A DNA stretch of 64,000 bases from an uncultured Pseudothermotoga sp. (GTDB taxonomy: Bacteria > Thermotogota > Thermotogae > Thermotogales > DSM-5069). The translations under genes and the position numbers were made by a program. The notes under the pieces are model-generated. The model saw only the letters and a program-made list of their open reading frames with translations, was not told where the DNA came from and ran no database searches. Below, one piece after another: positions 11,177-32,324 of the stretch (position 1 is its first letter; every line of letters begins with the position of its first letter). The stretch covers positions 124,001-188,000 of the forward strand of contig CALKJI010000004.1 in NCBI GenBank assembly GCA_937995655.1, in the 5' to 3' direction.

Positions 11177-12355
11177 ATGAAAAAAGTTGTTTTGATTGCT
11201 TTGTCATTTGTTTTTATTATGGCCATGGTATTTAGCGCCGCTGAAAAGCCGAGCAATCTTTTTGGTATAGATCTGTACAAAGTACTGTCTAAAAAGCCTG
11301 GAAATATATTCTTATCACCTTTCAGTATCGGTTCAGCCCTTGCAATGACTTATATCGGTGCAGCCGGTGATACGGCAAAACAGATGAGAGATGTTCTGCA
11401 GTTTGATGTTGAAGATGAAGTGCTTCACAACAATTTTTCAAAGTTGATCAAATCATTGAATCAACCGAACGAAAAATACCAATTGTCTATTGCAAATTCC
11501 ATGTGGGCACAAGATGGATATCCATTTTTGGAAGAGTTCATCAGTAAAGTTCAGAAATATTACGAGTCGGGTTTGAATTATGTTGATTTTGTAGATACAG
11601 CCAAGAGAGAAGAAGCAAGAAAAAAGATCAACAGATGGGTCGAAGAGAGGACAAACGAAAAGATAAAAGACATCATCAAGCCAGACGACATAGACGAACT
11701 GACGAGGCTTATCCTAACAAATGCCATATATTTTAAAGGCAAGTGGGAAAGTCCGTTCGATCCGTCTTCGACAAAGAGAGAGCCATTTTATGTCACCAAA
11801 AGCGAGAAAAAGGAAGTAGATATGATGCATCAAAACATAGTTACAGGATACACAGAGACTCTTTCTGTTCAAGTCCTTGAATTGCCTTATGCTGGCAAGG
11901 AAATCTCAATGATAGTTGTACTTCCCAAACAAGAAAAAAATTTACAACAGGTAGAGTCGGAACTTTCACTTGAACTTTTGACAAAGTGGCTAAGTGATCT
12001 AAGGCAAACACAAGTCGATCTCTATTTGCCTAGATTCAAAGTGGAATGCCGATTCACTTTGAAAGGAATACTCATAAGTATGGGCATGAAAGATGCATTT
12101 ACAGCGGCGGCAGATTTTTCAAGGATGGATGGGACAAAGATGCTACAGATGAAGGATGTCATTCATCAGTCCTTCGTTGAGGTCAATGAAGAAGGAACAG
12201 AAGCAACAGCAGCAACGGCGGTTATTATGGGCATCAAAGCTGCTCCATCCAAGCCAATCGTTTTCAGAGTAGATAGGCCTTTTCTCTTCTTGATTTATGA
12301 TAATGTGCATGAACTGATCTTGTTCATGGGTCGAGTAGTCAATCCACAGCAGTAA
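11177..12355 (+). CDS. secreted serpin (serine protease inhibitor)
   Basis: 392 residues, full serpin length. Signal peptide MKKVVLIALSFVFIMAMVFSA, then the serpin fold: NLFGIDLYKVLSKKPGNIFLSPFSIGSALAMTYIGAAGDT (about 27-65), TNAIYFKGKWESPFD (about 180-195), and near the C-terminus the hinge EEGTEATAATAVIMG followed by FRVDRPFLFLIYDN. The small-residue hinge predicts an inhibitory serpin able to insert its reactive loop. Aligning the hinge with alpha-1-antitrypsin puts P1 at Lys of GIK-AAP, suggesting a trypsin-like target; the neighbouring Ile is an alternative. It would act outside the cytoplasm against endogenous or foreign proteases. Ribosome site GGGAGGGATAGGA precedes the ATG. A bidirectional terminator follows. 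Confidence 0.96.
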   Translation: MKKVVLIALSFVFIMAMVFSAAEKPSNLFGIDLYKVLSKKPGNIFLSPFSIGSALAMTYIGAAGDTAKQMRDVLQFDVEDEVLHNNFSKLIKSLNQPNEKYQLSIANSMWAQDGYPFLEEFISKVQKYYESGLNYVDFVDTAKREEARKKINRWVEERTNEKIKDIIKPDDIDELTRLILTNAIYFKGKWESPFDPSSTKREPFYVTKSEKKEVDMMHQNIVTGYTETLSVQVLELPYAGKEISMIVVLPKQEKNLQQVESELSLELLTKWLSDLRQTQVDLYLPRFKVECRFTLKGILISMGMKDAFTAAADFSRMDGTKMLQMKDVIHQSFVEVNEEGTEATAATAVIMGIKAAPSKPIVFRVDRPFLFLIYDNVHELILFMGRVVNPQQ

Positions 12356-13162: not shown

Positions 13163-14209
13163 TCATATTACAAGCAATTTCCCAGTAGGATTGAATTTTC
13201 TGTACAACTGTACTCTCAGATTCTGATACTTTTTATAATTCTCTATATGGTCGTAGTTTGGTTGATTCCATGGCTCTTTTTGAGAAAGCACTTGGTTGAA
13301 ACCTTCTAAGAGTTTTCCTTCAAATTCTCCCGAGTAACTTCCTTGCACGAATCTTTCGAAAGCCTCTGAGAATTGGTGCCACGATCTTTCTTCTTCCCCA
13401 GGAACAACAGGGTAGAACAAACCGTTATTCGACTTGACGGCCTTTAGATCGCCTATGGCATCGCCTATCATCAAAACCTCATCATCTTTGTAGCCGCCAG
13501 ATTTCTTTGCAAGTTCTATGTGTTGTGACTTTGTTCCCATCTCTTGCCCAGCAATGAGAGATATATATTGAGCAAGGTCGTACTTTTCCCAATAATCTGC
13601 AAGGTCATCGTATGGTGTTTGTGAGACTACTATAATATCAGCATGTTGTGCCATCAACTGTACAGCCTCTCTCACACCATCAAATGGTGGTATTTCAGCT
13701 GAAATGTGTGGGAAGGTTCTGTTTACAGCTTCACTCCAACCAAGCAACTTATAAAGGCCAAAAGTCTTTGGTCTTTCTTCATTTATGTATTTTTCTAGAG
13801 ATTGATTTCCCAGACCTAGGTTGTTCTTTTTTGCGTAATCTATGAAGTCTTCAAGGATCTTTAGGTCTGGTAGTATAATATTTCTTTGCTTTACTATATT
13901 TTGTACATCAGTTCTTTCGTAGAGAGCGTGTAGGATCAGCTGAATAGCAATGAACCTGTTGCATCCTCTGTGCTCTGAGAAGAGGTTGTAGTATTCTGCT
14001 ATTTCTCTGTAGTAAGATTCAATCTCCCATAGATTGTAGAATTCCATAAAATGTGGATGAAAGATCAAGATCTGTTTTCCATTCATGTTGTCTGTAACAC
14101 ATCCATCTGTGTCTATTGCAACTAGAAATTTCTTGGTTCTTTTAAAGTTAAGCAATTGTTCTCTTGGTTTCTCCTTAAGATCTTTATGTGATAGTCTAAC
14201 GTACGTCAT
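13163..14209 (-). CDS. HAD-superfamily hydrolase in the hexuronate/inositol operon
   Basis: 348 residues. HAD motif I is AIDTDGCVTDN near residues 31-41 (nucleophile Asp and acid/base Asp two residues later). Motif II is probably VVSQTP (about 217-222). Motif III/IV is the KSGGYKDDEVLMIGDAIGDLKA region (about 255-276) with paired acidic residues. Between motif I and II is a helical cap of about 170 residues, longer than in small HAD phosphatases. Most HADs are phosphatases; the substrate here may be a phosphorylated sugar acid or inositol derivative. It is last in a tight operon, three bases after the phosphofructokinase-family gene, and ends at a terminator. Function inferred from motif and context only. 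Confidence 0.85.
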   Translation of the reverse strand: MTYVRLSHKDLKEKPREQLLNFKRTKKFLVAIDTDGCVTDNMNGKQILIFHPHFMEFYNLWEIESYYREIAEYYNLFSEHRGCNRFIAIQLILHALYERTDVQNIVKQRNIILPDLKILEDFIDYAKKNNLGLGNQSLEKYINEERPKTFGLYKLLGWSEAVNRTFPHISAEIPPFDGVREAVQLMAQHADIIVVSQTPYDDLADYWEKYDLAQYISLIAGQEMGTKSQHIELAKKSGGYKDDEVLMIGDAIGDLKAVKSNNGLFYPVVPGEEERSWHQFSEAFERFVQGSYSGEFEGKLLEGFNQVLSQKEPWNQPNYDHIENYKKYQNLRVQLYRKFNPTGKLLVI

Positions 14210-14212
14210 TTT

Positions 14213-15535
14213 TCACACTCCCTGTTGCCTAAAACCTGTAGGAATGTAATTTGGACAAAGTTTTGGCGCCATTATTTCTTTGAAGTTAGCAAACTCTGGT
14301 AATGGGCCGCCTATCAACGGCATTGCCCACTTTACGAAATCGTCTGTCACATCGACTTTGTTTTCGCTGATCCATTTCCTTGGGAACTCTCTTGCAGAGT
14401 TTGCAACGATATTCAATGGCACTTGTGAATACTTGACTTTGTATTTTTCTGAGGGAACTCTTACGATCGTTGCCATGTATCCTGTCTCACCATTCAAAGC
14501 TAGGTTTGCTGCAAAGGCACCAACTTGGTATGCTTCTTTGAGATCTACTTTTGAAACGTACGCCATCTCTCTCCTTTGCCTTGTTCCTGGTTTTTCATAT
14601 CTTGCAATACCTGGAACAACCAATCTACTCTTTGCCCTTCCCTTTTCATCTTTTCTGTCAAGACCGTTCAGATAATTTGCAAGAACTTGTTCTGCACTTT
14701 TTTCGGCTGCACTGAACTGGGCATGACCGAAGCTGTCTTTGAGTATTCCCAGGTCTCCCACATTCACACCTTCACCGATCACTACGATGCACCTTTTGTG
14801 GATTTTCAATGTTTCATTCACTTTTTCAGTGATATATTCAAGGTTCGACTTATAATCTTCCTGTGATAACGCTTCGGGAAGTATTATTAACAGAGGCATT
14901 TCTCTTTTTGGATCGGCAAGCCTTGCAGAGGCCGTTATGAATCCCATTTTTCTGCCCATGACACCTATGACAAGGACTGGATCAGAAGTGTAACTTGCCT
15001 TGTTTTCTTCGTTGGCTTCAAGAATGTTTATCGCCGTATTTCTTGCCACACTTCCATAACCTGGATCGTGATCACATATGGCAAAGGTACCGTCATCTTG
15101 GAGTTTTCCACCTAAGTCGTTGTCTATCGTCTTTGGGATACCCACGCAGATCACGTCAAGTCCCTTTTCATGAGCAAGTAAACTTACTTTGTTGGCTGTG
15201 TCCATCGAATCTTCTCCACCGCAATAGAGGAAATATCCAACATTGTGTGCTTTAAAGACCTCAACAATTCTTTCTAAATCTTCCTGGGACTTGATTTTGT
15301 ATCTGCAGCTGCCTATGACACCAGCCGATGGAGTTCTTTCAAGCAACTGAATCTGTTTTGGATCCTGTGCTGTTATGTCTATGAGTTCTTCGTTCAAAAC
15401 ACCTAAAATACCCATCCTTGCACCATAGATTTTTCCAACTTTACCACTATTCATGAAGGTCTCAATTGCGCCGCGCAAACTGTTGTTGATAACCGATGTT
15501 GGACCTCCCGATTGTGCAATCACAACATTTTTCAT
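14213..15535 (-). CDS. phosphofructokinase-family enzyme, probably PPi-dependent
   Basis: 440 residues of the PfkA superfamily. N-terminal QSGGPTSVINNSLRG, GGEDSMDTANKV near residue 105, PKTIDNDLGG near 134-143, MGRKMGF near 191. In the family, Lys in PKTIDND and an acidic residue after GG(D/E) mark pyrophosphate-dependent enzymes, whereas ATP enzymes have PGTIDND and GGDG. Glu replaces the usual first Asp of GGDD, which is uncommon. ATG start with GGGAGG. Its place between a LarA-type racemase and a HAD hydrolase in a sugar-acid operon raises the possibility that it phosphorylates something other than fructose 6-phosphate; simple glycolytic PPi-PFK remains possible. Confidence 0.88.
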   Translation of the reverse strand: MKNVVIAQSGGPTSVINNSLRGAIETFMNSGKVGKIYGARMGILGVLNEELIDITAQDPKQIQLLERTPSAGVIGSCRYKIKSQEDLERIVEVFKAHNVGYFLYCGGEDSMDTANKVSLLAHEKGLDVICVGIPKTIDNDLGGKLQDDGTFAICDHDPGYGSVARNTAINILEANEENKASYTSDPVLVIGVMGRKMGFITASARLADPKREMPLLIILPEALSQEDYKSNLEYITEKVNETLKIHKRCIVVIGEGVNVGDLGILKDSFGHAQFSAAEKSAEQVLANYLNGLDRKDEKGRAKSRLVVPGIARYEKPGTRQRREMAYVSKVDLKEAYQVGAFAANLALNGETGYMATIVRVPSEKYKVKYSQVPLNIVANSAREFPRKWISENKVDVTDDFVKWAMPLIGGPLPEFANFKEIMAPKLCPNYIPTGFRQQGV

Positions 15536-15537
15536 CT

Positions 15538-16815
15538 CTATACCTCCCTTTTGACATCATACAAAAATTTTCCACCATGTTCGATCCAGAGACAGTCATC
15601 TGATAGGAAATCTTCTTTCTTAATTGCTCTTGGATCGCGATAGGCTAACCCAACGGCTTCACAATCCTTTTTAGGTATAGAGGTGGCAAGTGTGACAGTG
15701 AACGCAAATTCTTCTTTCTTTGTAGCTGGATCATACGTGCCATCACCCCTTACATTTATTACGTGAGCGGCTACGTTCAGGTCAAAGTTTGGACGTTTCT
15801 TCAAGAAATCTTTGACATAATCTTTGCAGTGGTATCCAATTTCACGTATCGATCTATCCATCTGTGCATTCGAATGAAATATTTTGATATGAGGTGCATA
15901 GATTATGATTTCTCCATTGGGTGCGAGAACCCCTGGTCTTTGAAGTTTGTATGAACCTTTTCCTGCCGTCCAGATTTCGTCATAACTTTCTCCTATCACC
16001 TGCACTGCCATCCTCACAGGCTTATTTAAATAAATTATGTGAATCCTTTTGCTTGCTTTAACAGCTTCTCTGTAAGCTTGCAGAGCTCCTTCAAAGTCAT
16101 AACCTGTGTACAGACCTTTTGCGACTATTCCACGATCTGTTTCTTCATAAACCATGTTCAAGAATAGAACTGGTGAATTGACCTTTTCAAAGGCGATCTT
16201 GCAAGCTTGGTTAATCACCTCTCTTGCAGAGTTTTCTTCCGATCCGATGATCCTTGGAATGCCTATGAGCACAGCAGCCCAGTGGAACAAGCCTACAACA
16301 TCCGGTCCGGCTATGCCTGGTACTATGGATTTCAGACCACCCGAAAAACCTGTAGATTCGTGTGGAGAAGTGCCACTCAAAACTATGATCAAATCATATT
16401 TTTCAAAAAACAATTTGTTCAACGTTACCGGCAGCGGTTGTTCAAGATCTCCCATGGTTTTTTCACTGACAAATTCTTTGCTCAAGATTCCAACAGTTAC
16501 CAGTGCATCAGGGTTTGCGTATTCGTGGTTGAAGAATACAAATCTTTCCTCCTGAAGTCCCAGTTTTTTTCGAATTTCTCTTTCAGTCATCGCGCGATGT
16601 GTGCCACTTGCATTCAAGGTATGAAGAGTCTTTAACCCTCTTTTTTCAAGGTGTTTAAAGATTAGGGGTACCAACCTGTCCGAAAAATCTTGGCGTGTAT
16701 AATCTGGGTGTATCAAAAGAACCTTCTGCAGTCTCTTGTCCGGTAAAATCTGTTCAATCAAATATGATATATCTTCTGTCTTGAGCTCATCAGAAAGGTT
16801 CTGTAAATAGTTCAT
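15538..16815 (-). CDS. LarA-family nickel-pincer racemase/epimerase
   Basis: 425 residues of the lactate racemase family. Visible landmarks: PDYTR near residues 37-41 (the DxTR substrate-binding motif), GTHR near 71-74 (catalytic His), and SPHESTGFSGGLKSIVPGIAG near 165-185, with the second catalytic His and the Lys that covalently carries the nickel-pincer nucleotide. Family members racemise 2-hydroxy acids; a D-gluconate 2-epimerase activity is known among LarA homologues. Here it follows genes for tagaturonate epimerase and fructuronate reductase, whose product D-mannonate is the C2 epimer of D-gluconate, so mannonate/gluconate epimerisation is the favoured inference. Cofactor-making larB, larC and larE are not in the window. 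Start at ATG 16815 (AAGAAGGTG upstream). Confidence 0.85.
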   Translation of the reverse strand: MNYLQNLSDELKTEDISYLIEQILPDKRLQKVLLIHPDYTRQDFSDRLVPLIFKHLEKRGLKTLHTLNASGTHRAMTEREIRKKLGLQEERFVFFNHEYANPDALVTVGILSKEFVSEKTMGDLEQPLPVTLNKLFFEKYDLIIVLSGTSPHESTGFSGGLKSIVPGIAGPDVVGLFHWAAVLIGIPRIIGSEENSAREVINQACKIAFEKVNSPVLFLNMVYEETDRGIVAKGLYTGYDFEGALQAYREAVKASKRIHIIYLNKPVRMAVQVIGESYDEIWTAGKGSYKLQRPGVLAPNGEIIIYAPHIKIFHSNAQMDRSIREIGYHCKDYVKDFLKKRPNFDLNVAAHVINVRGDGTYDPATKKEEFAFTVTLATSIPKKDCEAVGLAYRDPRAIKKEDFLSDDCLWIEHGGKFLYDVKREV

Positions 16816-16828
16816 AATTGCACCTTCT

Positions 16829-17653
16829 TCAAACACCGGAGTAGGCATTGAATCCGCCGTCTATTGGAATAACAGCACCCGTTACGAACTTTGATGCATC
16901 TGAAGAAAGCCATACACAAACACCTATCAAATCCTCTGGATCTCCGAATCTACCCATGGGTGTATGATCAATTATTGCTTTACCCCTAGCTGTGAGGTTG
17001 CCCTGTTCGTCAAGTAACAAATATCTGTTTTGCTGTGTCAAGAAAAATCCTGGCGCAATGGCATTGACTCTAAGGTTTTTGTTGTATTCCATAGCAAGGT
17101 GAACAGCAAGCCACTGAGTGAAATTGCTCACAGCTGCTTTTGCTGCAGCGTAACCAATGACGCGTGTCAATGGTCTGAAGGCTGCCATTGAGGAAATGTT
17201 TATGATCGATCCACCTTCCTCTCTATTTACCATGAATTTGCCAAAGATCTGTGATGGCAATATTGCACCACCAAAAAGGTTCAGTGAAATCACTTTTTGA
17301 AGTGCATCGAGGGGCATATCAAAAAAACTTAATTCTGCAGATGTTGTTGCCTGTGGTATGTTTCCACCAGCCGCATTGAGTAAGACATCTACTTTGCCAA
17401 AATCTCTCAAAATTTCTTCGTACGTTTTCTTAATTTCATCGACACTCAAGACATCCATGTAGTATCCCTTTGCTTCAAAACCGGCCTTTTGCATCTCGCC
17501 AGCCACAACATCAAAATTTTTTATGTCACAGACGGCGATCTTTGCACCAAACTTTGCTAAACCTTTTCCTATGGCTGATCCAAGTATCCCTGCACCTCCT
17601 GTTATGACTACAACTTTGCCATCCAAACTAAACAACTTGTAGGCTTCTTTCAT
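16829..17653 (-). CDS. uxuB: D-fructuronate reductase / D-mannonate oxidoreductase, SDR type
   Basis: 274-residue short-chain dehydrogenase. Rossmann motif TGGAGILGSAIG near residues 16-27, NAAGG near 90, catalytic Ser (INISSMA) and Tyr-x-x-x-Lys (YAAAKAA, about 160-166). The C-terminal FFLTQQNRYLL, HTPMGRFGDPEDL and PIDGGFNAYSGV match the SDR-type UxuB of Bacillus and Thermotoga relatives. It would reduce D-fructuronate to D-mannonate with NAD(P)H, the step after UxaE. ATG at 17653 chosen for its AAAGGAGTG ribosome site. It is flanked by uxaE upstream and the LarA homologue downstream with almost no gaps. Confidence 0.85.
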   Translation of the reverse strand: MKEAYKLFSLDGKVVVITGGAGILGSAIGKGLAKFGAKIAVCDIKNFDVVAGEMQKAGFEAKGYYMDVLSVDEIKKTYEEILRDFGKVDVLLNAAGGNIPQATTSAELSFFDMPLDALQKVISLNLFGGAILPSQIFGKFMVNREEGGSIINISSMAAFRPLTRVIGYAAAKAAVSNFTQWLAVHLAMEYNKNLRVNAIAPGFFLTQQNRYLLLDEQGNLTARGKAIIDHTPMGRFGDPEDLIGVCVWLSSDASKFVTGAVIPIDGGFNAYSGV

Positions 17654-17667
17654 CGTCAACACTCCTT

Positions 17668-19146
17668 TCAAACTTTGAGTAAATTTAGATGTTTTTGCAT
17701 ATGGTTTTTCAAGAGTTCGTAGTGCTCACTCTCGTGTTCAAAGAGAGTCTTCAAAATGCGATCCTTGAAAAGATAACGTCCTGATTCCATGGCTGTTAGT
17801 ATTGAACCATAGGTTATGTGAATCAATTGGCGGGCATCGGGCATTTCAAAAAGCTTTACAAGATCTGAGTCGGGTAATTGGTCAACATCGGGTATCCTTG
17901 TAAGATCGGTAGTTACATGATATGACGCTCTGTCCGTTTCAAAACGCGTTAATGCGTATTTATGTATTTGCCTGTAAAGTGAAACGTCTTTCACAGCAAT
18001 TACTTTAATTGCTTCCAGATAACTAGTCCCCGCAGTTTTGATGTGTAGGTTACCTTCAGTATACCTTGCAAAGATCGGATATATGCTGAATTTATCGCTC
18101 CCTGAGTGCAAAGATAGTCTATATCCCGACAGTGTTTTAGCAATTTCACTGTGAATTGCTATCTCTTTCTCAAGCAGGGAAAGATCCCCTATGTAGTCGA
18201 TCCCCTTTTGCCACTGACCAACAAATCTTGGTGCAAGGGTTTGGAAATCAACACCCCTCCTTCTAAGTTCTTGTACGATGAATATATGGGCTAAAGGTGT
18301 TGTCGGTGTTGAAGTTTCATCTATAGAGATCTCAAGATCAAAGTCTTTTTTCACACCCTTGAGTGCATCGTAGCACTTGACAACATGTTCTAACACATCG
18401 ATGTACGTAACAAAGATTTTGACGAAGTTCTCTTCATCCATGACAAGCTTCTTTTCTAAAAGTGTGAAGGTTTTCCCAACATATTTCGTCTCTAATTCTC
18501 TCCTTCTTGGGTGAGACTGATAGAAATCTGCGATCTCTTTTTGACTCATCTTATCCATGTTTCTCACATATTCCGATGGATCTACGGTGTACATACTGTA
18601 TCCTTCGTGAGCAGCCTTCAATAGGTCTTCGATCTGTTTTACGTGATCTGCATCGGCTCCAAATGTTCCATCATAACCGCTTTCAAAGACGCCCCAAACA
18701 GCGCTTTCGAGAGCATCTTTGAAAGTTCTCTGTGTTCTTGAAAGTTCTCTAACAGATTGTTGAGCGAAGATCGGGAATAGATCGTAATTTTTCGCTACTT
18801 GAGCGTGTGCAGCTGTAGCAATTCCAAGTCTATCACCAAAACCGAAGGAGGTTTTCTTGGTACATGTCTTTGGCTTAAGGTCAAAGAGTTCTCTTATGGC
18901 ATCACAGTTTTTGTGTGAAAGCTGGCCGAGTATTACATCCAAGTTTTCAACACTGCCGATTTTCTCGCCTTCGAATTTCTCACATATTCCCTTTCTCCCA
19001 ATTACAATAAGGTACTTCTCTTGTTGATTTTTGCACATAAAGAGGGTTGAACCATCCATGTGATGCATTGAACGACTATAGACTTGATATCTTTTGTTTG
19101 TCATTTTCTCAAATTCTCTAACGATATCTTCAGTTTGCTTTTTCAA
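17668..19146 (-). CDS. uxaE: tagaturonate epimerase (UxaE family)
   Basis: 492 residues resembling UxaE, the T. maritima enzyme that interconverts D-tagaturonate and D-fructuronate. Landmarks: SFGFGDRLGIATAAH near residues 98-112, TFGADADHVKQ near 158-168 (probable metal ligands), SIDETSTPTTPLAH near 290-303, LSLHSGSDKFSIYP near 350-363 (further His/Asp/Lys candidates). TTG at 19146 is preferred because GGAGGATTATC precedes it; an ATG at 19167 overlaps the deoR stop without a site. In this cluster its substrate tagaturonate would come from IolO (31500-32324), linking inositol breakdown to the mannonate branch. Confidence 0.8.
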   Translation of the reverse strand: MKKQTEDIVREFEKMTNKRYQVYSRSMHHMDGSTLFMCKNQQEKYLIVIGRKGICEKFEGEKIGSVENLDVILGQLSHKNCDAIRELFDLKPKTCTKKTSFGFGDRLGIATAAHAQVAKNYDLFPIFAQQSVRELSRTQRTFKDALESAVWGVFESGYDGTFGADADHVKQIEDLLKAAHEGYSMYTVDPSEYVRNMDKMSQKEIADFYQSHPRRRELETKYVGKTFTLLEKKLVMDEENFVKIFVTYIDVLEHVVKCYDALKGVKKDFDLEISIDETSTPTTPLAHIFIVQELRRRGVDFQTLAPRFVGQWQKGIDYIGDLSLLEKEIAIHSEIAKTLSGYRLSLHSGSDKFSIYPIFARYTEGNLHIKTAGTSYLEAIKVIAVKDVSLYRQIHKYALTRFETDRASYHVTTDLTRIPDVDQLPDSDLVKLFEMPDARQLIHITYGSILTAMESGRYLFKDRILKTLFEHESEHYELLKNHMQKHLNLLKV

Positions 19147-19163
19147 AGATAATCCTCCTCCCG

Positions 19164-19928
19164 TCATGCTTTGTACACTTGAACGCCTTTCTCCAGTAAG
19201 AAGATTTCGAATTCTTTCGGAATATTCTCATCTGTTATGACACCATCTATATCCTCAGGTAGAGCAAATGAAGCAAAGGCACTGCGACTGAATTTTGTTG
19301 AATCTGTGACAATGTATACCTTCGAAGCACTTCTTATCATTGCTTTTTTGACGTCTGCTTCAACGACGCTCGGTGTCATGAATCCTTTTTCCACTGAAAA
19401 GCCCGTTGTACCTAAGAATGCTTTGTCAACATTGATTTCTTCTAAGAATCTGAGAGCCCAGGGTCCAACTAATGATAGACTGTTTTCCCTGACAACACCG
19501 CCGAGCACAAGTACTTCGATACCAAGTTCTATGAGTTTTCCTGCTATAAAAACGTTGTTTGTCACAACAGTTATCATTGACAGTTCTGATTTTCTCAATT
19601 CGAAGGTTGCATAATAATTAGTACTGCTACTGTCAAGTATAACTGTATCTCCATCTTCAATCAAAGAAACTATTTTCTTGGCAATTCTCTTCTTTTCATT
19701 TTCCCGTTGGTGTATTTTTTTCAAGAAATTCCATTCGGAACGGGAATGATCAGGCAAGATTGCCCCGCCATGAGTTCTGACTATTGAACCATTTGCCTCC
19801 AAGAAATCTAGGTCTTTTCTTATTGTCACACTACTTACCTTCAACTGTCGTGTGAGTTCGTTGACAGTAATTTTTCCTTTCTTTCGTAAAAGATCAAGAA
19901 TAACATTTCTTCTCTCTTCTGTAAACAA
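19164..19928 (-). CDS. DeoR-family transcriptional regulator
   Basis: About 254 residues. N-terminal DeoR helix-turn-helix: ERRNVILDLLRKKGKITVNELTRQLKVSSVTIRKDLDFLE (about 4-45). It is followed by the phosphosugar-sensing DeoRC domain with DGDTVILDSSSTNYYA, VVTNN, GG(V/E) and LGTTGFSVEKGF landmarks. Start TTG at 19928, preceded by GGAGGGG at proper spacing; an upstream extension to 20072 contains the promoter and is not translated. It opens the minus-strand operon and faces the iol operon, so it probably controls both. Confidence 0.9.
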   Translation of the reverse strand: MFTEERRNVILDLLRKKGKITVNELTRQLKVSSVTIRKDLDFLEANGSIVRTHGGAILPDHSRSEWNFLKKIHQRENEKKRIAKKIVSLIEDGDTVILDSSSTNYYATFELRKSELSMITVVTNNVFIAGKLIELGIEVLVLGGVVRENSLSLVGPWALRFLEEINVDKAFLGTTGFSVEKGFMTPSVVEADVKKAMIRSASKVYIVTDSTKFSRSAFASFALPEDIDGVITDENIPKEFEIFLLEKGVQVYKA

Positions 19929-19947
19929 AATTTTCCCCTCCGTCTGA

Positions 19948-19976
19948 ATACTATCAGTTTGAGTTGCGAAAGTCAA
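19948..19976 (-). promoter_or_regulatory. promoter of the deoR-uxaE-larA operon
   Basis: Minus strand TTGACT (19971-19976), 17-base spacer, TAGTAT (19948-19953), placing the transcript start just ahead of the deoR ribosome site. Confidence 0.7.
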
Positions 19977-20001
19977 ATTCGAAACCATACAAAAGTACGT
20001 G

Positions 20002-20031
20002 AAAGAATGAGAAAAGTGAAAAAAGAATGAG
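20002..20031. promoter_or_regulatory. 20-bp-phased direct repeats, candidate DeoR operator
   Basis: AAAGAATGAG occurs at 20002-20011 and again at 20022-20031, exactly 20 bases (two helical turns) apart, between the two divergent promoters. DeoR proteins often bind direct repeats, so this is the best operator candidate for the shared regulator. Confidence 0.5.
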
Positions 20032-20090
20032 CAAGAAAATGATAAATGCACATAAACTCTTTTGAATGACAATTTTCAAATTTGTCTATC

Positions 20091-20119: not shown

Positions 20120-20143
20120 AGAGAATGTACAGGAGGGATGAAG

Positions 20144-21331
20144 ATGAAGGCCGTAAGATTACATGCGAAATGGGAACCAAGACAAGGCTTCAAGCTTGGT
20201 CCTAAGGACATTGAAGGAAAAGTTTGTTGGCTTGGTAGCAAGGTATGGCGCTATCCACAGGTCGTTGTTGAAGAAGTTTTAGAACCTAAAATTAAAAAGC
20301 CAACGGAAGTATTGATTCAAGTAAAAGCTTGCGGAATCTGCGGCAGCGATGTTCACATGGCGCAAGCAGATCAAGATGGTTATATGCTCTATCCGGGTTT
20401 GACGGGATTTCCAGTAACGCTTGGGCATGAATTTTCTGGAATTGTTGTTGATGCCGGACCTGAGGCGATAAACAGAAGAACAAACAAAAGGTTCGAACCG
20501 GGTGAACCAGTGACTTCTGAAGAGATGTTTTGGTGTGGACATTGCAGACCTTGTGCAGATGGATACCCAAACCATTGTGAAAATCTTCATGAAATTGGCT
20601 TTGATATCGATGGCGCTTTTGCAAAATACGTGATATCCGATGCAAAGTACCTATGGAGTTTAAGGGAACTTGAGAAAAACTATCAAGGGGATAGTTTGTT
20701 CTTGGCCGGTAGCCTTGTTGAACCAACCTCTGTTGCTTACAACGCTGTTATAGAAAGAGGTGGTGGAATAAGACCTGGAGACAATGTGGTTATCCTTGGC
20801 GGAGGACCTATTGGTCTTGCAGCTGTTGCTGTGCTAAAGAGAGCTGGTGGAGCTAAAGTAATACTTTCAGAACCATCAGAAACAAGAAGAAAGCTTGCGA
20901 AAGAATTGGGTGCAGATGTGGTAATTGATCCAACCAAAGAGAACTTTGTTGATGCGGTTCTGGACAGTACAAATGGTATGGGTGCGAAGATCTATCTTGA
21001 AGCGACAGGGCTGCCTCAGATAGTTTGGAAAGACATTGAGGAAACTATTTGGAGAGCTAGAGGCGTGAATGCAACCGTTGTCATTGTCGCAAGGGCAGAT
21101 GCAAAAATACCCGTTACCGGTGAAGTGTTTCAAGTGAGACGTGCTCAAATAGTAGGCTCACAAGGTCACTCAGGGCATGGTAATTTCCCAAGGGTCATAA
21201 GTCTTATGTCAACAGGAATGGATATGACTAAAATGATTTCAAAGACTGTGAAACTCGAAGAAATACCTGAATACATAAAGAGATTGCAAACCGACAAAGA
21301 ACTCATCAAAGTAACGATGCTAAACCCCTGA
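20144..21331 (+). CDS. iolM: 2-keto-myo-inositol (scyllo-inosose) dehydrogenase, zinc ADH family
   Basis: 395-residue medium-chain dehydrogenase. Catalytic-zinc ligands lie in CGICGSDVH (about 65-73) and GHEFSG; four structural-zinc Cys lie in the CGHCRPCADGYPNHC region (about 130-145). NAD-binding GGGPIGLAAVAVLKRAGGAKVI is near 223-245. It resembles T. maritima IolM, which oxidises 2-keto-myo-inositol to a diketo product. ATG at 20144 has AGGAGGG six bases upstream; the ATG at 20138 abuts the site. The following genes are iolG and iolN homologues, which strengthens the assignment over sorbitol or threonine dehydrogenase. Confidence 0.82.
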   Translation: MKAVRLHAKWEPRQGFKLGPKDIEGKVCWLGSKVWRYPQVVVEEVLEPKIKKPTEVLIQVKACGICGSDVHMAQADQDGYMLYPGLTGFPVTLGHEFSGIVVDAGPEAINRRTNKRFEPGEPVTSEEMFWCGHCRPCADGYPNHCENLHEIGFDIDGAFAKYVISDAKYLWSLRELEKNYQGDSLFLAGSLVEPTSVAYNAVIERGGGIRPGDNVVILGGGPIGLAAVAVLKRAGGAKVILSEPSETRRKLAKELGADVVIDPTKENFVDAVLDSTNGMGAKIYLEATGLPQIVWKDIEETIWRARGVNATVVIVARADAKIPVTGEVFQVRRAQIVGSQGHSGHGNFPRVISLMSTGMDMTKMISKTVKLEEIPEYIKRLQTDKELIKVTMLNP

Positions 21332-21341
21332 GGTGATTCTC

Positions 21342-22328
21342 ATGGAAAAGGTGAAAATTGGAGTAGTTGGAAGTGGTTTCATAGGTCAAGTACATCTGGA
21401 AATTCTTTCAACCTTTGATGACGTTGAGATAGTTGGTGTGATGGATGTTGACAAGAATAGAGCGAAATCAGTTGCAGAAAGGTTTAAAGCGAAGGTTTTT
21501 GATAATTTGAAGCAAATGAAGGATGAAGGTCTCAATGCCGTTTATATTACTTCACCAAACAAAACGCACTTTGAGTACGCAATGAATGCACTTGAAAATG
21601 GGCTGAATGTCTTTTGTGAAAAACCAATGACGATTTCTTTGAACGATGCTTTAGCTCTGGAGTCAAAAGTTAAGGAAAAGGGTGCAATCTTTCAAGTAGG
21701 CCATAATAGAAGATTTGCACACGTATATACTTTCATGAAAGAAAGAATAGAGAATGGAACGGTGAAACCCTATTCGTTCCAGATAAAGATGAACAGAGGA
21801 GAACTACTCAACCCACCTTGGACCTCAGACAGATCTTACACCGGAGGGTTTCTTTTTGAAAGTACCTTACACCTCTTCGATATGGCAAGATGGCTCTTTG
21901 GGGACATTGAAGAGATGTATGTTTTAGGAAAAAGGAGTGTCTATCCAGACATTGATGATTGGTCGATCGCGATGAAGATGAAAAATGGAATCATAGGTAC
22001 TTTTACATCCTGTGCTCATGCAAGCTGGATGATACCTTTTGAGAGAGTCGAAGTATACGGCGAGCATGTGATGATGGCAAACGAAGAGATGGAAAGAGTC
22101 CATTTCTGCAAAGGTCTTGGAAAAGAAGTTGAAAGCCATGATTTCACAAAGGTAGATTTCAAAGAAAAGTGGGGATACATAATTGAAAACAGATTATTCA
22201 TCGACTGTCTCAAAGAACACAAAACTCCACCTGTCACTGTGAGCGATGGTGTTAAAGTCATAAGAATCATTGATGCTTGTTACAGGGCCGTTGAAAGTGG
22301 TGATGCCCACGTAAGATTGGAGGGTTGA
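21342..22328 (+). CDS. iolG: inositol 2-dehydrogenase (Gfo/Idh/MocA family)
   Basis: 328 residues: N-terminal Rossmann domain GVVGSGFIGQVHLEIL (about 6-21), NAD-contacting CEKPM (about 91-95) with the family Lys, and C-terminal alpha/beta substrate domain (GGFLFESTLHLFDMARWLFG near 168-187 supplies the Asp/His pair). It would oxidise myo-inositol to 2-keto-myo-inositol. Start ATG 21342 with GAGGTGATTCTC; an upstream GTG is part of that site. Tight spacing with iolM and a four-base overlap zone with iolN indicate one operon. Substrate assignment rests on context; the family is broad. Confidence 0.8.
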   Translation: MEKVKIGVVGSGFIGQVHLEILSTFDDVEIVGVMDVDKNRAKSVAERFKAKVFDNLKQMKDEGLNAVYITSPNKTHFEYAMNALENGLNVFCEKPMTISLNDALALESKVKEKGAIFQVGHNRRFAHVYTFMKERIENGTVKPYSFQIKMNRGELLNPPWTSDRSYTGGFLFESTLHLFDMARWLFGDIEEMYVLGKRSVYPDIDDWSIAMKMKNGIIGTFTSCAHASWMIPFERVEVYGEHVMMANEEMERVHFCKGLGKEVESHDFTKVDFKEKWGYIIENRLFIDCLKEHKTPPVTVSDGVKVIRIIDACYRAVESGDAHVRLEG

Positions 22329-22330
22329 TC

Positions 22331-23299
22331 ATGTCAAAGTGGCAGATACCACCAAAGGAAGGTCATATGGAAAAACCATCAGGTATTTACTATCAAACTA
22401 TGACTATGAAGGAAATAGAAGAAAGAGTGAAAAAGTGTGATTTAATAATTATCCCTGTTGGGAGCACGGAAAACCATGGTCCAAATGCGCCAACTGGTGA
22501 AGATACTTTTCTGGTCACAAGGATGGCGGAACAGGTTGCTTTGAAAACAGGTTGCACTGTGGCCGAACCGATCTGGTACGGTTTTCATCCGTACCATCAT
22601 ATTGGTATGCCTGGGACGGTACCAGTGAAAGACGAAGCATTCATTGATCTTTTAGTTAGTGTCATCGCTGGTTTTTGGAACGCAGGGTTTAAGAAACAAA
22701 TCTTGCTGAACGGTCATGGACAGGAGTTTGTTATACCCGTCGCCATACACAAATTTGCGAAAATTTTCCAAGTGCCTGCGATGATCTTCAATGTGAACTG
22801 GTATCATGCGATACAAGACAAATTCAAAACCAAGCAGGAAGGTGGTCCTTACGAAACCAATTTCATCCATGCCGATGAAGTAGAAACCTCTTGGAGTCTT
22901 GCCTTGTTCCCCGAGTTCTGTCATCAGGAATGGGCCGTTGACACAACACCGCGTGGTTACATGCCAGAAGGTCATATAGACAAAGCTGGTAATTTGTTGC
23001 ATAGAGCTATTGCTTGGTACGGACATGTAGGTGGTGGCCCGATCGAAGTTGCAGCATATCCAGAAGGTGTCGTTGGAAAGGCAAGTAAAGCCAGTGTAGA
23101 TAAGGCGAAGGAAGGAGTAGAAGCATTACTCGATTATCTTGAAAAACTTGTCAACGACATCATGAAGGCGTTCCCAGCAGGCAAGCTACCACCAGCTAAT
23201 GAACTATCTCAAAGACCAAAAGAAGAGTTAGATGCCGTATTGAAAAAGCCATTCGAACCTGGTTGGAGAAGTATATACAGTTTGGGAAACATGTGGTGA
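22331..23299 (+). CDS. iolN: IolN-type diketo-inositol hydrolase (creatininase family)
   Basis: 322 residues of the creatininase-like amidohydrolase family. Metal-site landmarks: IIPVGSTENHGPNAPTGEDT near 40-59 (Glu, His, Asp ligands), FHPYHHIGMPGT near 85-96, LLNGHGQE near 126-133, HADEVETSWSLALFP near 180-194. In T. maritima the homologue IolN opens the diketo ring made by IolM to give 5-keto-L-gluconate. ATG at 22331 follows GGAGGGTTGATC. The order iolM-iolG-iolN in one operon supports the role. Confidence 0.8.
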   Translation: MSKWQIPPKEGHMEKPSGIYYQTMTMKEIEERVKKCDLIIIPVGSTENHGPNAPTGEDTFLVTRMAEQVALKTGCTVAEPIWYGFHPYHHIGMPGTVPVKDEAFIDLLVSVIAGFWNAGFKKQILLNGHGQEFVIPVAIHKFAKIFQVPAMIFNVNWYHAIQDKFKTKQEGGPYETNFIHADEVETSWSLALFPEFCHQEWAVDTTPRGYMPEGHIDKAGNLLHRAIAWYGHVGGGPIEVAAYPEGVVGKASKASVDKAKEGVEALLDYLEKLVNDIMKAFPAGKLPPANELSQRPKEELDAVLKKPFEPGWRSIYSLGNMW

Positions 23300-23302
23300 G
23301 TT

Positions 23303-23323
23303 GAAGGCGCCTTGAGCGCCTTC
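23303..23323 (+). promoter_or_regulatory. intercistronic hairpin between iolN and binding protein
   Basis: Perfect 8-bp stem GAAGGCGC / GCGCCTTC with a 5-base loop, just after the iolN stop and 8 bases before the next ribosome site. No T-run; likely an mRNA processing or stability element. Confidence 0.6.
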
Positions 23324-23341
23324 ATAATAGGGGGGATCTGT

Positions 23342-24274
23342 GTGAAAAGGTTGGTAACGTTACTACTGGTTGCCATGGTATTTGTCGGAGTATTTGGCTA
23401 CACATTCTATGTCGTATCTCATGGTGGGCCGGCTGACCCGTTCTGGGGAGTAGTTATGAAAGGTGTCAAAGATGCGGCAACCAAATTCGGGGTCAACGCA
23501 GTCTATCTTGGTCCAGAAAAGTTTTCTCTCAAAGAGTTCATCGACCTTGTTAATTCAGCAATCGTCAAGAAACCAGATGGTCTTGTCGTCACTATCACAA
23601 ATCCCGTTGCGTTGGACGAACCACTCAGAAGGGCAATTCAAATGGGCATTCCTGTTGTCGCAATCAACGTACCCGATGACAGATCGACCGATGAAAAGAT
23701 ACCATATCTATGCTATGTGGGCATGAATGAATATCTCGCAGGTGTTTATGCAGCAAGAAGAATGCTACAAGAATTCACACCAAAGAGGGCCGTTGTGGCG
23801 ATTCACGAACCAGGCCACGTGGGACTTGAAGCAAGGGCAAAAGGTATTGCAGATGTCTTGGCTGAAAAGAAGATTCCTGTGGAAAAACTCGATATTACTA
23901 CTGATCCAACAAAGGCTTTGACCTTACTCAAGAGCTATTTAACAAGGTATCCCGACACCAATGCCATCTTCACCCTTGGTCCTCTGGGTGCACATCCAGC
24001 GATACAACTCGTTGAAGAAGAGAAACTTGTTGGCAAGGTAAAAGTAGGTGCCATCGACTTAACAACAAAGATAACCGATGCGATCAAGAGGGGTGTGGTT
24101 GTTTTCACAATCGACCAACAGCAGTATTTGCAAGGTTATCTACCAATCGTGTTTTTGTACCTTTACAAGGAATTTGGTTTGATCCCTCACGAAGACATTT
24201 TGACAGGGCCTTCAATTGTTGATAAGAGCAACGTGGAAATCGTTGAAAAAACTGTACAGCTGGGTTACCGTTGA
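23342..24274 (+). CDS. CUT2 sugar/inositol ABC binding protein
   Basis: 310 residues of the ribose/inositol-type periplasmic binding family. GTG start with GGGGGGATCTGT site; signal peptide VKRLVTLLLVAMVFVGVFGYTF. The mature protein shows YVVSHGGPADPFWGVVMKGVKDAA (about 12-35) and KPDGLVVTITNPVALDEPLRRAIQMGIPVVAINVP (about 77-112). Together with 24326-25297 and 25294-26043 it forms one importer; placement directly after iolN makes inositol or a close relative the favoured substrate. Confidence 0.88.
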   Translation: MKRLVTLLLVAMVFVGVFGYTFYVVSHGGPADPFWGVVMKGVKDAATKFGVNAVYLGPEKFSLKEFIDLVNSAIVKKPDGLVVTITNPVALDEPLRRAIQMGIPVVAINVPDDRSTDEKIPYLCYVGMNEYLAGVYAARRMLQEFTPKRAVVAIHEPGHVGLEARAKGIADVLAEKKIPVEKLDITTDPTKALTLLKSYLTRYPDTNAIFTLGPLGAHPAIQLVEEEKLVGKVKVGAIDLTTKITDAIKRGVVVFTIDQQQYLQGYLPIVFLYLYKEFGLIPHEDILTGPSIVDKSNVEIVEKTVQLGYR

Positions 24275-24285
24275 TGAACAAACAG

Positions 24286-24326
24286 GGGGTGGTTTGCCAC
24301 CCCTCTTATTTATTCAAAAAGAGGGG
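24286..24326 (+). promoter_or_regulatory. two overlapping, mutually exclusive hairpins
   Basis: Hairpin A: GGGGTGG / CCACCCC, 24286-24303, loop TTTG, followed by a T-rich tail. Hairpin B: CCCCTCTT (24300-24307) / AAGAGGGG (24319-24326). They share 24300-24303, so only one can form fully, and B sequesters the AAGAGGGG that could serve as permease ribosome site. Confidence 0.6.
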
Positions 24327-25297: not shown

Positions 25298-26043
25298 AGG
25301 ATTTTATCATAGAGATGAAGAACATCAAGAAATCCTTCGGAAAAGTGCAAGCCCTCAGAGGAGTTGATTTTCATGTTTCAAGGAACGAAATAGTAGGCCT
25401 TCTTGGTGACAATGGTGCCGGTAAGTCTACTCTTATAAAAATACTCGTTGGTTACTACCAACCTGACGATGGAGAAGTTTACTTCGAGGGTAGGAAGGTT
25501 AATTTCAAATCACCATGGCAGTCCAGGCAACTTGGTATAGAGACAGTCTATCAAGATCTCGCACTTGTCAATCTTATGCCGTTGTGGAGAAATTTCTTTT
25601 TGGGTAGAGAAATAATTAGGAAGATTGGACCTTTCTCATGGATTGAACGAAGAAAGATGAAAAGGATTGTCATAGATGCAATGAATGATGTGGGCATATC
25701 TGTAAGAAACCCAGATGAGACAGTTGCTTTCATGTCTGGAGGCGAAAGGCAAGCAGTTGCCATTGCGCGGGCCATATACTTTGGTGCAAAACTTTTGATA
25801 CTGGATGAACCAACAGCGGCCTTGTCAGTAGGCGAGACTAAAAAGGTACTTCAACACATTGAGGAAGCAAAAAAGCGTGGCATATCCGTAATCTTTATAA
25901 CTCACAACATCTATCATGTGTACGAAGTGGCAGACAGGCTGGTCCTTTTGGAACGTGGTGAAAAGGTTGGAGATTATCTAAAGAAAGATGTGACACCACA
26001 GTACATAATGGATACCATAGCTGCAGCAGCAGGTGTCAGATAG
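25294..26043 (+). CDS. CUT2-type ABC transporter ATPase, single domain
   Basis: 249 residues with one nucleotide-binding domain: Walker A GDNGAGKST (about 39-47), signature MSGGERQAVAIARA (about 148-161), Walker B LLILDEPTAA (about 167-176) and switch His. RbsA-type CUT2 ATPases usually carry two fused domains, so this half-size form probably works as a homodimer. ATG 25294 overlaps the permease stop by four bases; an upstream frame to 25216 is not used. Confidence 0.9.
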   Translation: MKDFIIEMKNIKKSFGKVQALRGVDFHVSRNEIVGLLGDNGAGKSTLIKILVGYYQPDDGEVYFEGRKVNFKSPWQSRQLGIETVYQDLALVNLMPLWRNFFLGREIIRKIGPFSWIERRKMKRIVIDAMNDVGISVRNPDETVAFMSGGERQAVAIARAIYFGAKLLILDEPTAALSVGETKKVLQHIEEAKKRGISVIFITHNIYHVYEVADRLVLLERGEKVGDYLKKDVTPQYIMDTIAAAAGVR

Positions 26044-26056
26044 AAAGGTGATGAGA

Positions 26057-26881
26057 ATGGAAATTTTATTCATTGGTCATGTGGCAAAGGATATCAACAA
26101 AACGTTGCAAAAGACGGTGATCGTTCCAGGTGGAGGGGTCTTCTATGGGAGTATTGCCGCGCAAAAAGTTGGTGCAAGGTGCAGAGTAATAACAAAGTGC
26201 GCAGCTCAAGATCAATTTTTGTACGAAGAAATGTTGAAATCAGGTGTTCAAGTTTCATTCTTTGAAAGCGAAACAACAACGACCATTGAAAATTTTTATC
26301 CTACAGAGAATCCAGACGACAGGATTAGTCGAGTTCTTTCTTTAGCGAGTAGTTTTCAAAAAAAGGATATCGAAGATCTATCGTGTGAAATGATTGTTCT
26401 AAGTGCTTTGTGGCATGGAGAGTTTGCTGAAGAAATGATAGTTGATCTCAGAGAAAAGGCAAAGATACTGATAGGGGATGCCCAAGGTTTTCTCAGAAAT
26501 GTGGTCGAAGATGGACAGTTGAGATACCAAGATTGGCACGAGAAAACAAAATATCTCAAGTTTTTCGATGTGTTCAAGATAGATAGCAACGAGGCTTTCG
26601 TGCTCACAGGCGAAAAGGAACTCAAGAAAGCCTGTGAAAAGATACATAAGTTAGGTGTCAAAATAATTGTCGCAACTCACAAAGAAGGAGTCTGCGCCTT
26701 CGATGGCAAACAGTTTTATGAAGCACAGTTCTTGCCTTACAAGCTTGAGGGCAGAACTGGTAGAGGTGACACTTGCTTGGCCGTCTTTGTTACTGCTCTG
26801 TATGACCTAAAAATGGCTGTCAAACTTGCTTCGGAGGTGACATCAAAGAAAATGCAATATCCTGGCCCTTATAGGGGCTGA
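26057..26881 (+). CDS. PfkB-family sugar/inositol kinase
   Basis: 274 residues of the ribokinase/PfkB family, somewhat short. N-terminal IGHVAKDINK and VPGGGVFYGSIAAQKVGA (about 24-41, the GG substrate motif). C-terminal GRTGRGDTCLAVFVTALYDL (about 232-251) contains the GxGD anion hole and catalytic Asp. A similar PfkB kinase (TM0415) sits in the T. maritima iol cluster, and myo-inositol 3-kinases belong to this family, so an inositol or keto-acid kinase is plausible. ATG 26057 follows AAAGGTGATGAGA. Placed between two transporter operons on the same strand. Confidence 0.8.
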   Translation: MEILFIGHVAKDINKTLQKTVIVPGGGVFYGSIAAQKVGARCRVITKCAAQDQFLYEEMLKSGVQVSFFESETTTTIENFYPTENPDDRISRVLSLASSFQKKDIEDLSCEMIVLSALWHGEFAEEMIVDLREKAKILIGDAQGFLRNVVEDGQLRYQDWHEKTKYLKFFDVFKIDSNEAFVLTGEKELKKACEKIHKLGVKIIVATHKEGVCAFDGKQFYEAQFLPYKLEGRTGRGDTCLAVFVTALYDLKMAVKLASEVTSKKMQYPGPYRG

Positions 26882-26899
26882 TTGAAGGAGGTGTTTGGA

Positions 26900-27892: not shown

Positions 27893-27897
27893 CTATT

Positions 27898-27924
27898 GGG
27901 CGTGGCCTAACACCACGCCCTTTT
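27898..27924 (+). terminator. terminator-like attenuator after binding-protein gene
   Basis: 8-bp GC-rich stem GGGCGTGG / CCACGCCC with 7-base loop followed by TTTT, six bases after the afuA-like stop and just before the permease ribosome site. Probably partial, so that the binding protein is made in excess. Confidence 0.75.
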
Positions 27925-27935
27925 GGAGGGATTGA

Positions 27936-30703: not shown

Positions 30704-31494
30704 AGCTTCTCATTTCAGATCTTGATGGAACTCTTTTGGAAACTGACCATTCTGTTTCAGAAGGAACTTTGAAATTGGTAGAAAAGATCAAGGGACTGGG
30801 TATTCAATTCTCTATCGCCACAGGACGTGCTCTGTCGGCGGCAAGTACTTATATTCAACAGTTGAAGATAACTGTCCCTGTAATATTGTTCAATGGTGCA
30901 AGGCTTTACGATCCAGTTGAAAGAAGATATTTAGTGGAACACTCTTTGTCACAAAGAGCAGTTGAATTGGCAACAGAAGTAGTCATCATGCACAGGGATC
31001 TCACCGCTGCCTTTTTTGTGAAGGAAGAAGTTTACGCTTATAATGTTGGATTGAATGCCGCTACTTATGTTATAAGAGACGCCCTGGTGTATAAATCCAT
31101 CGATGATGTTGAGTCAATAAAGAAAGAAAAGATCACAAAGATCGTTTTTGCGAGTTATCCATTCAATTTGAGCAGACTCGAAATAGAATTGCCACAAGTT
31201 TTTGGACTAGAAGCCGATGTCGTCAGGTCAGAGGATGATTTACTCGAGATACTACCTAAATCTGTCAACAAAGGCTCTGCACTGAAAGAACTTTGCAAGT
31301 TAATGAAAATATCAGCAAGTGAAGTGATTGCCATGGGAGACAGTATGAATGATCTAAAGATGATCAAGATGGCAGGTATTGGTATAGCAGTTGGTAAAGC
31401 AAAGGACGAACTCAAGAAAAACGCAAAACTGTACATTGATAAGACAGGAAAAGAGGCTTTAGAAAAAGTCTATGAGTTATTGAGGCGGGGGTGA
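30700..31494 (+). CDS. Cof-type HAD phosphatase
   Basis: 264 residues, HAD subfamily IIB. Motif I ISDLDGTLLETD (residues 5-16), motif II SIATGRALSAA (about 37-47), motif III Lys in VNKGSALKELCKL (about 188-200), motif IV AMGDSMNDLKMIKMAGIGIAVGKA (about 210-233). These enzymes dephosphorylate sugar phosphates and cofactors in the cytoplasm. Translationally coupled (ATGA) to the sugar-phosphate-type transporter ATPase and followed by iolO, so it may remove phosphate from the imported compound before oxidation. Confidence 0.88.
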   Translation: MKLLISDLDGTLLETDHSVSEGTLKLVEKIKGLGIQFSIATGRALSAASTYIQQLKITVPVILFNGARLYDPVERRYLVEHSLSQRAVELATEVVIMHRDLTAAFFVKEEVYAYNVGLNAATYVIRDALVYKSIDDVESIKKEKITKIVFASYPFNLSRLEIELPQVFGLEADVVRSEDDLLEILPKSVNKGSALKELCKLMKISASEVIAMGDSMNDLKMIKMAGIGIAVGKAKDELKKNAKLYIDKTGKEALEKVYELLRRG

Positions 31495-31499
31495 GCTGT

Positions 31500-32324
31500 T
31501 TGAAGATAGCTCTTGTCATAAGTACTTCCGACGCTGCTTTTGATTCCTTGGCTTTTAAGGGAGATCTTGTAAAAGGACTACAGATGGCGAAGAGGATCGG
31601 TTATGACGCAGTTGAAATTGCGGTTAGGGATCCTAAGAAAGTTGATGTAGATGAAATAGAACTTATAGCCAAAGATCTTCAAATGGATGTCGCAGCAGTT
31701 GGAACTGGTCAAGCCTTTTTGGCAGAAGGTTTAAACTTGATCGATCCAGATGAAAATATTCAAAAGCGCACAATAGAAAGGCTGAAGGACCACATAGATT
31801 TTGCTTCACATTTTTCCTCTAAAGTGATCATAGGTTTTATAAGGGGAAATAGAAAACACAGATCTGTCCAAGAAGTAAGCAACTTATTTGTCGAGCACAT
31901 GAGGTGTCTCGCTGATTATGCACTTCCAAGGAAGGTAACGTTGGTGATAGAGCCTTTGAATAGGTATGAAATAGATTTTCTCAACACGCTGGGTCAAACT
32001 TTTGAGGTTGTTCAAATGATAGATAGAACAAATGTTGGTATACTGGCAGACACCTTTCACATGAATATAGAAGAAGCAAGAATCGAAGAAAGTCTTCGTT
32101 TCGTGGCAAGTAAGTTGTTTCACTTTCATGTAGCAGACAGCAACAGATGGGCTCCTGGAACAGGACACTACGATTTTGAATCAACTTTTGAGGCTTTGCA
32201 CAAGATAGGCTATGAAGGTTATATTTCCGTAGAATGTTTACCTATGCCAAATGGACCCCAGGAGGCAGCAAAGATTGCCTATACAACTGTGAAAAGTTTT
32301 TTACAGATCTTTGAGAGGGATTGA
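31500..32324 (+). CDS. iolO: 5-keto-L-gluconate epimerase (TIM barrel, IolO type)
   Basis: 274 residues of the xylose-isomerase-like TIM barrel family. It closely resembles T. maritima IolO (TM0416): opening LVISTSDAAFDSLAFKGDL (about 6-24), VEIAVRDP, VIEPLNRYE (about 147-155, metal Glu), GILADTFHMNIEE (about 181-193, metal Asp and His), FHVADSNRWAPGTGHYDF (about 208-225) and SVECLPMP (metal Glu). IolO converts 5-keto-L-gluconate to D-tagaturonate. TTG at 31500 preferred over GTG 31491 because GGGGGTGAG lies in between. It closes the pathway begun by iolM, iolG and iolN 10 kb upstream on the same strand. Confidence 0.87.
   Translation: MKIALVISTSDAAFDSLAFKGDLVKGLQMAKRIGYDAVEIAVRDPKKVDVDEIELIAKDLQMDVAAVGTGQAFLAEGLNLIDPDENIQKRTIERLKDHIDFASHFSSKVIIGFIRGNRKHRSVQEVSNLFVEHMRCLADYALPRKVTLVIEPLNRYEIDFLNTLGQTFEVVQMIDRTNVGILADTFHMNIEEARIEESLRFVASKLFHFHVADSNRWAPGTGHYDFESTFEALHKIGYEGYISVECLPMPNGPQEAAKIAYTTVKSFLQIFERD

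Follow-up and report, generated by a model that had tools for sequence, protein, structure and literature searches.

A predicted GntE-type D-mannonate/D-gluconate 2-epimerase at an inositol and hexuronate locus of Pseudothermotoga, in a genome without recognised larB, larC or larE

A stretch of 64,000 nucleotides from an uncultured Pseudothermotoga sp. (contig CALKJI010000004.1; hereafter the window) contains a gene for a LarA-superfamily protein in what looks like a sugar-acid operon, and it raises two questions: what the enzyme acts on, and how it would acquire its cofactor. A first-pass annotation had read the gene as a nickel enzyme that epimerises D-mannonate and D-gluconate at C2, diverting mannonate to gluconate and so explaining why the operon lacks a mannonate dehydratase. 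Here, we compare the locus with related genomes and characterised enzymes; G numbers denote genomes, G000 being that of the window.

The operon and its LarA-type gene

The operon is on the minus strand, in the order DeoR regulator, UxaE, SDR reductase, GntE, PFKx and HADx:

19164..20072, minus strand: DeoR-family regulator, first gene of the operon (Pfam DeoRC and HTH_DeoR)
17668..19167, minus strand: uxaE, tagaturonate/fructuronate epimerase (Pfam UxaE, 637 bits)
16829..17671, minus strand: SDR-type fructuronate reductase / D-mannonate oxidoreductase, UxaD/UxuB-like (NF006132, 357 bits, cut-off 281)
15538..16815, minus strand: gntE, predicted LarA-superfamily D-mannonate/D-gluconate 2-epimerase of LarAH group 20, 425 aa (4NAR match, GntE clade, residues)
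14213..15535, minus strand: PFKx, PPi-type phosphofructokinase homologue in the gntK position (PRK14072, 361 bits)
13163..14209, minus strand: HADx, HAD-fold hydrolase paired with PFKx (Pfam HAD_2, 32 bits)

There are 4-bp overlaps between the DeoR and UxaE genes and between the UxaE and SDR genes, and gaps of 2 bp between GntE and PFKx and 3 bp between PFKx and HADx. The DeoR regulator probably starts downstream of the listed TTG. The gntE reading frame runs from an ATG at 16815 to a stop at 15538, and an alternative in-frame ATG at 16848 would give a protein of 436 aa; its place directly after the fructuronate reductase is confirmed. Beyond the operon, a secreted protein encoded at 11177-12355 reads like a serpin protease inhibitor, and similar genes are near the locus in G009 and G010.

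UxaE and/or the SDR adjoin GntE in 13 further loci from several families, many of which also have Gnd plus either GntK or PFKx. A genome scan for relatives had given five MAG loci only, and the comparison draws on genome searches. In most other GntE loci the SDR is 57-90% identical to that of the window, whereas in Thermotoga sensu stricto (L117-L120) the SDR at this operon position is only 34% identical, and the reductase thus looks displaced within otherwise conserved operons.

The window protein scores 84 bits against Pfam Lar_N (PF09861; cut-off 23.3) and so belongs to the LarA superfamily (DUF2088/Lar_N). Its closest solved structure is 4NAR (E = 1.6e-161, which rules out a chance match), identified in PMC7583248 as T. 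maritima GntE2 (TM0442), and the two are 58% identical over their full length. Alignment with the LarA residues listed in PMC7583248 gives R41, K162 (the carrier lysine) and H178 (a Ni ligand) as NPN-binding residues (LarA R75, K184 and H200), and D38, H73, H152 and K286 as catalytic residues (LarA D72, H108, H174 and K298); the cofactor-binding residues reported for GntE2 are R41, K164 and H180 (PMC7583248). The DxTR motif reads D38-Y-T-R41, and this motif, the catalytic histidine and the carrier lysine are all as the first-pass annotation described them. The substrate-loop residues E153/S154, G285 and N347 correspond to E155/S156, G286 and N348 of GntE2.

Maximum-likelihood analysis of 47 LarA proteins, a sample that does not include Corynebacterium GntE1, places the window GntE in one clade with 4NAR (25 rows, support 100/100) that leaves out Mar2, LarA and the broad-spectrum LarA structures. 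The proposed phylogenetic check thus came out in favour of the gluconate epimerase, and the tree and residues together rule out a lactate or malate racemase. The malate racemase Mar2 (LarAH6, 6D6Z) shares the superfamily and the NPN and catalytic residues, but it is in a separate clade and has Y/K, Q and H in the substrate loop where the window GntE has E/S, G and N. Lactate racemase LarA (5HUQ/2YJG) similarly shares the fold family and the residues D, R, H, H, K, H and K, but it has a hydrophobic substrate loop and is matured by LarBCE. Against the NCBIfam model NPN_18_hexonate (LarAH group 18) the window GntE scores 184 bits, below the cut-off of 500, as does T. maritima GntE with 192 bits, indicating that this model describes a sister group.

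The window gene is therefore, on its sequence relationships, very probably the orthologue of T. maritima GntE2, with D-mannonate and D-gluconate as the likely substrate pair. For GntE2, turnover of D-mannonate has been measured (kcat 197/s, Km 17 mM; PMC7583248), and while catalysis is predicted for the window protein, epimerisation has been demonstrated only for this orthologue. The function of T. maritima gntE was proposed in 2012 on the basis of gene context and tested by assay in 2020 (PMC7583248), and the mannonate/gluconate reading of the first-pass annotation thus matches published work; the enzyme function is not new, and the annotation is essentially known already. We think it unlikely that the enzyme is a hexonate 2-epimerase of the kind suspected for LarAH group 19, with altronate/allonate, idonate/gulonate or an aldarate as its native substrate. 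The GntE1 of that group does have a very high Km for mannonate, and its authors suspect another substrate (PMC7583248); moreover, tagaturonate from the inositol genes (see below) could in principle give altronate if the SDR acted on it. However, the window GntE groups with the group-20 enzyme GntE2 and has its substrate-loop residues, the SDR belongs to the mannonate oxidoreductase family, and UxaE supplies fructuronate.

Inositol genes and the predicted route to gluconate

Divergent from the operon is a set of inositol genes on the plus strand:

20138..21331, plus strand: iolM, scyllo-inosose 3-dehydrogenase, divergent from the operon (NF041097, 525 bits, cut-off 450)
21333..22328, plus strand: iolG-like inositol 2-dehydrogenase, between IolM and IolN (TIGR04380, 187 bits, under the cut-off of 355)
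22325..23299, plus strand: iolN, 3-dehydro-scyllo-inosose hydrolase (NF041098, 542 bits, cut-off 245)
23312..24274, plus strand: sugar/inositol-type ABC substrate-binding protein, followed by a permease and an ATPase (rhizopine SBP-like, 238 bits, under cut-off)
26033..26881, plus strand: PfkB-family kinase at the expected IolK position, TM0415-like (Pfam PfkB, 33.6 bits; context)
31491..32324, plus strand: iolO, 5-keto-L-gluconate epimerase (NF041099, 434 bits, cut-off 300)

Genes for a phosphonate-type ABC transporter and for a Cof-type HAD interrupt this set (20138-32324). Other genomes of the organism's family have the same inositol/hexuronate arrangement. In T. maritima, IolO acts as a 5-keto-L-gluconate 4-epimerase (PMC12632266), and its product, D-tagaturonate, is the substrate of UxaE. 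We infer that the operon constitutes the lower half of inositol as well as hexuronate catabolism. IolG, IolM, IolN and IolO would convert inositol to D-tagaturonate, with hexuronates as an alternative feed into the tagaturonate/fructuronate route; UxaE would then give fructuronate, the SDR mannonate and GntE gluconate, which a gluconate kinase (the adjacent PFKx being the likeliest) and Gnd would deliver to the pentose phosphate pathway. GntE would presumably work as LarA does, passing the hydride at C2 of the substrate to the NPN pyridinium and returning it on the other face, with H73 and H152 as the acid/base pair and K162 and H178 holding NPN-Ni.

The pathway role proposed in the first-pass annotation is supported, and its point about mannonate dehydratase extends to the whole genome. 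No UxuA was found anywhere in it by a search, confined to UxuA, that does find the T. maritima protein, so that UxuA encoded elsewhere in the genome is rejected as the exit for mannonate; an enolase-superfamily mannonate dehydratase might still offer another exit, which counts against the proposal. Gnd (6-phosphogluconate dehydrogenase) is present on G000:C5, away from the operon. The T. maritima GntE2 locus likewise has UxaE and an SDR reductase as neighbours, and the UxaR regulon of that organism includes gnd-uxaR-uxaE-uxaD-gntE-gntK (PMC3750489). The two differ in that T. maritima has gnd and gntK in the operon, whereas the window genome has gnd elsewhere and PFKx-HADx in the gntK position, and in that T. 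maritima has UxuA and a larC-larB-larE set, and the window genome neither. We consider it highly probable that the window GntE is a 2-epimerase linking inositol and hexuronate breakdown to gluconate, which would then be consumed by a kinase and Gnd.

PFKx, HADx and the gluconate kinase step

The window genome has no clear operon-type GntK, and none of its FGGY proteins scores over the gntK cut-off. The FGGY kinase beside Gnd on G000:C5 was set aside as a gluconate kinase, as in relatives it forms part of an arabinose-type cluster and its identity to the operon-type GntK is 25%; the rest of the FGGY family comprises glycerol kinase, xylulokinase and unassigned proteins. In G000, G009, G010, G014, G030, G100-G102 and an Atribacteria MAG, GntE is followed by PFKx (73-92% identical), and HADx is next after PFKx in all eight loci where the contig is long enough. 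A short Gnd gene is just before GntE in G100-G102 (TIGR00872, 393 bits in G101), and a transketolase gene follows HADx in G100 and G101. Thermotoga sensu stricto, G089 and G012 have an FGGY gluconate kinase and Gnd at or near the GntE locus. In G003-G006 and G008, GntE has no adjacent PFKx, which we count against the pathway as proposed. Immediately after gntE, G008 carries a fragment (L073 7683-8003) that matches 66 aa of HADx, with no PFKx, suggesting that PFKx-HADx has been lost in that species.

The predicted fold of PFKx (mean pLDDT 72) matches the PPi-dependent phosphofructokinase 3HNO (TM 0.71/0.79). PPi-type donor residues, scored as Asp at the E. coli Gly104 position and Lys at the Gly124 position, are kept in all nine PFKx orthologues (GG[E/N]DS and PKTIDND), and the catalytic IDND motif is present; in fold, donor residues and this motif PFKx resembles 3HNO and 3K2Q. 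It departs from them at the R162, H249 and R252 positions of E. coli PFK-1, which we take to be those that bind the 6-phosphate of F6P. Where 3HNO and 3K2Q have Arg or Lys at the Arg162 position and an HxQR F6P loop (His249/Arg252), all nine orthologues have Pro and an invariant insertion, GIARxExPGTRQRRExAYVS. PFKx thus has the donor residues of a PPi-dependent 6-phosphofructokinase without its F6P 6-phosphate-binding residues. The loss of the acceptor-phosphate site and the location in place of gntK together point to a PPi-dependent gluconate kinase, and we predict this function for PFKx. The predicted fold of HADx is like those of HAD phosphatases and phosphoglucomutases, with weak global TM. 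A partial survey of the literature gave no report of a gluconate kinase of the PFK family.

The NPN cofactor genes

The first-pass annotation had named absence of larB, larC and larE from the genome as grounds for abandoning its reading, and all three are absent from the window genome and from the 11 genomes of its family. For LarC (PF01969) there is no candidate in the window genome and none in the family (0 of 11), and for LarB (NF033503) and LarE (TIGR00268) there is no match over the cut-off in these 11. The LarB-like match in the window genome proves to be PurE (195 bits), and what the LarE model matches best there, at 44 bits (cut-off 150), is a different PP-loop protein. The models are sensitive enough, since in the larC-larB-larE operon of G090 LarC scores 201 bits (cut-off 90), LarB 236 (cut-off 175) and LarE 315 (cut-off 150); in other Thermotogae genomes PF01969 also detects full-length LarC, at 467-504 bits. 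A PP-loop protein with an SGGEDS motif on G000:C5 (L048 1405-2406) has 44 bits to the LarE model, and relatives have weak LarE-model matches of similar size; it is a weak lead for an unusual sulfur-transfer step.

LarC was surveyed in 103 Thermotogae genomes, and LarB and LarE in the 11 family (f1) genomes. A LarA homologue is present in 50 of the 103, LarC in 15 and both in 12, so that LarC is commoner in genomes with LarA (12/50) than in those lacking it (3/53; Fisher p = 0.011, not corrected for relatedness). Sixteen of the 24 genomes with a GntE orthologue are LarC-negative. Four of these (G003, G004, G008 and G009) are single-contig assemblies, and we reject an assembly gap as the reason for the absence.

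GntE is not the only such enzyme in the genome, which has a second LarA in the malate racemase family of Mar2:

L001 1465-2736 (G000:C3, about 107.5-108.8 kb): malate racemase, second LarA of the genome (NCBIfam and tree)

This protein scores 564 bits against the malate racemase NCBIfam (cut-off 500), groups with Mar2 and keeps the NPN residues; its gene adjoins malic-enzyme-like and tricarboxylate-transporter-like genes (read by eye). With both enzymes in coherent operons and LarB, LarC and LarE absent, there are two LarA-type enzymes without a recognised cofactor pathway. Of the first-pass description of GntE as a nickel enzyme, the conserved cofactor residues stand, and the assignment follows from these only, the maturation proteins being absent. 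This absence leaves the formation of holoenzyme in the host unaccounted for, and counts against the proposed role.

One possibility, to which we give somewhat less than an even chance, is that these bacteria acquire NPN, or a late precursor of it, from other organisms or complex media. Purified LarA apoproteins can be activated in vitro by supplying NPN (PMC7583248), and larCBE is encoded in other Thermotogae genomes. Against uptake, we know of no NPN importer, and many lineages would need to depend on one. About as likely is that NPN or a related pincer cofactor is made in these bacteria by enzymes that have escaped recognition, for which we would put the chance at roughly one in three; the LarC-negative majority among GntE-bearing Thermotogae genomes and the NPN residues retained by the malate racemase favour it, but no candidate gene was found, and the neighbours of LarA homologues in the family, read by eye, share no unexplained gene. 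PFKx and HADx were considered for a cofactor role because all PFKx loci with known LarC status are LarC-negative; this is not favoured, since G003-G006, G008 and G089 have neither LarC nor PFKx at the locus. That the protein is made but inactive, or has a role other than epimerisation, for want of NPN would fit the missing genes but is highly improbable: LarC-negative and LarC-positive GntE share all seven NPN and catalytic residues wherever the sequence is complete, LarC-negative pairs have a dN/dS of about 0.03-0.06 (with dS near saturation in all but one), and with UxuA absent there would be no known exit for mannonate without GntE. Judged from these substitution patterns, LarC-negative GntE is not decaying and is under purifying selection.

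The epimerase itself is an expected orthologue, and it is the absence of the NPN genes that is worth following. What goes beyond published work is this absence alongside an intact GntE, together with the PFKx prediction. Two NPN enzymes persist with intact active sites in genomes that lack any recognised NPN biosynthesis gene, where the usual puzzle is the reverse, with LarBCE present without LarA in about 15% of genomes (PMC11796402). In a partial literature survey, larA in the absence of larBCE was not found reported for Pseudothermotoga. Complete assemblies exist for several of these genomes, so that biosynthesis, salvage and use of another cofactor are directly testable alternatives. We see an even chance that, in the Pseudothermotoga family and other Thermotogae, GntE and malate racemase function without LarBCE, with NPN or a substitute from an unrecognised source, and that a PPi-dependent gluconate kinase of the PFK family serves the same route. 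Such a kinase would, if confirmed, add an activity new to the phosphofructokinase family, and would save ATP in the fermentation of inositol and hexuronates.
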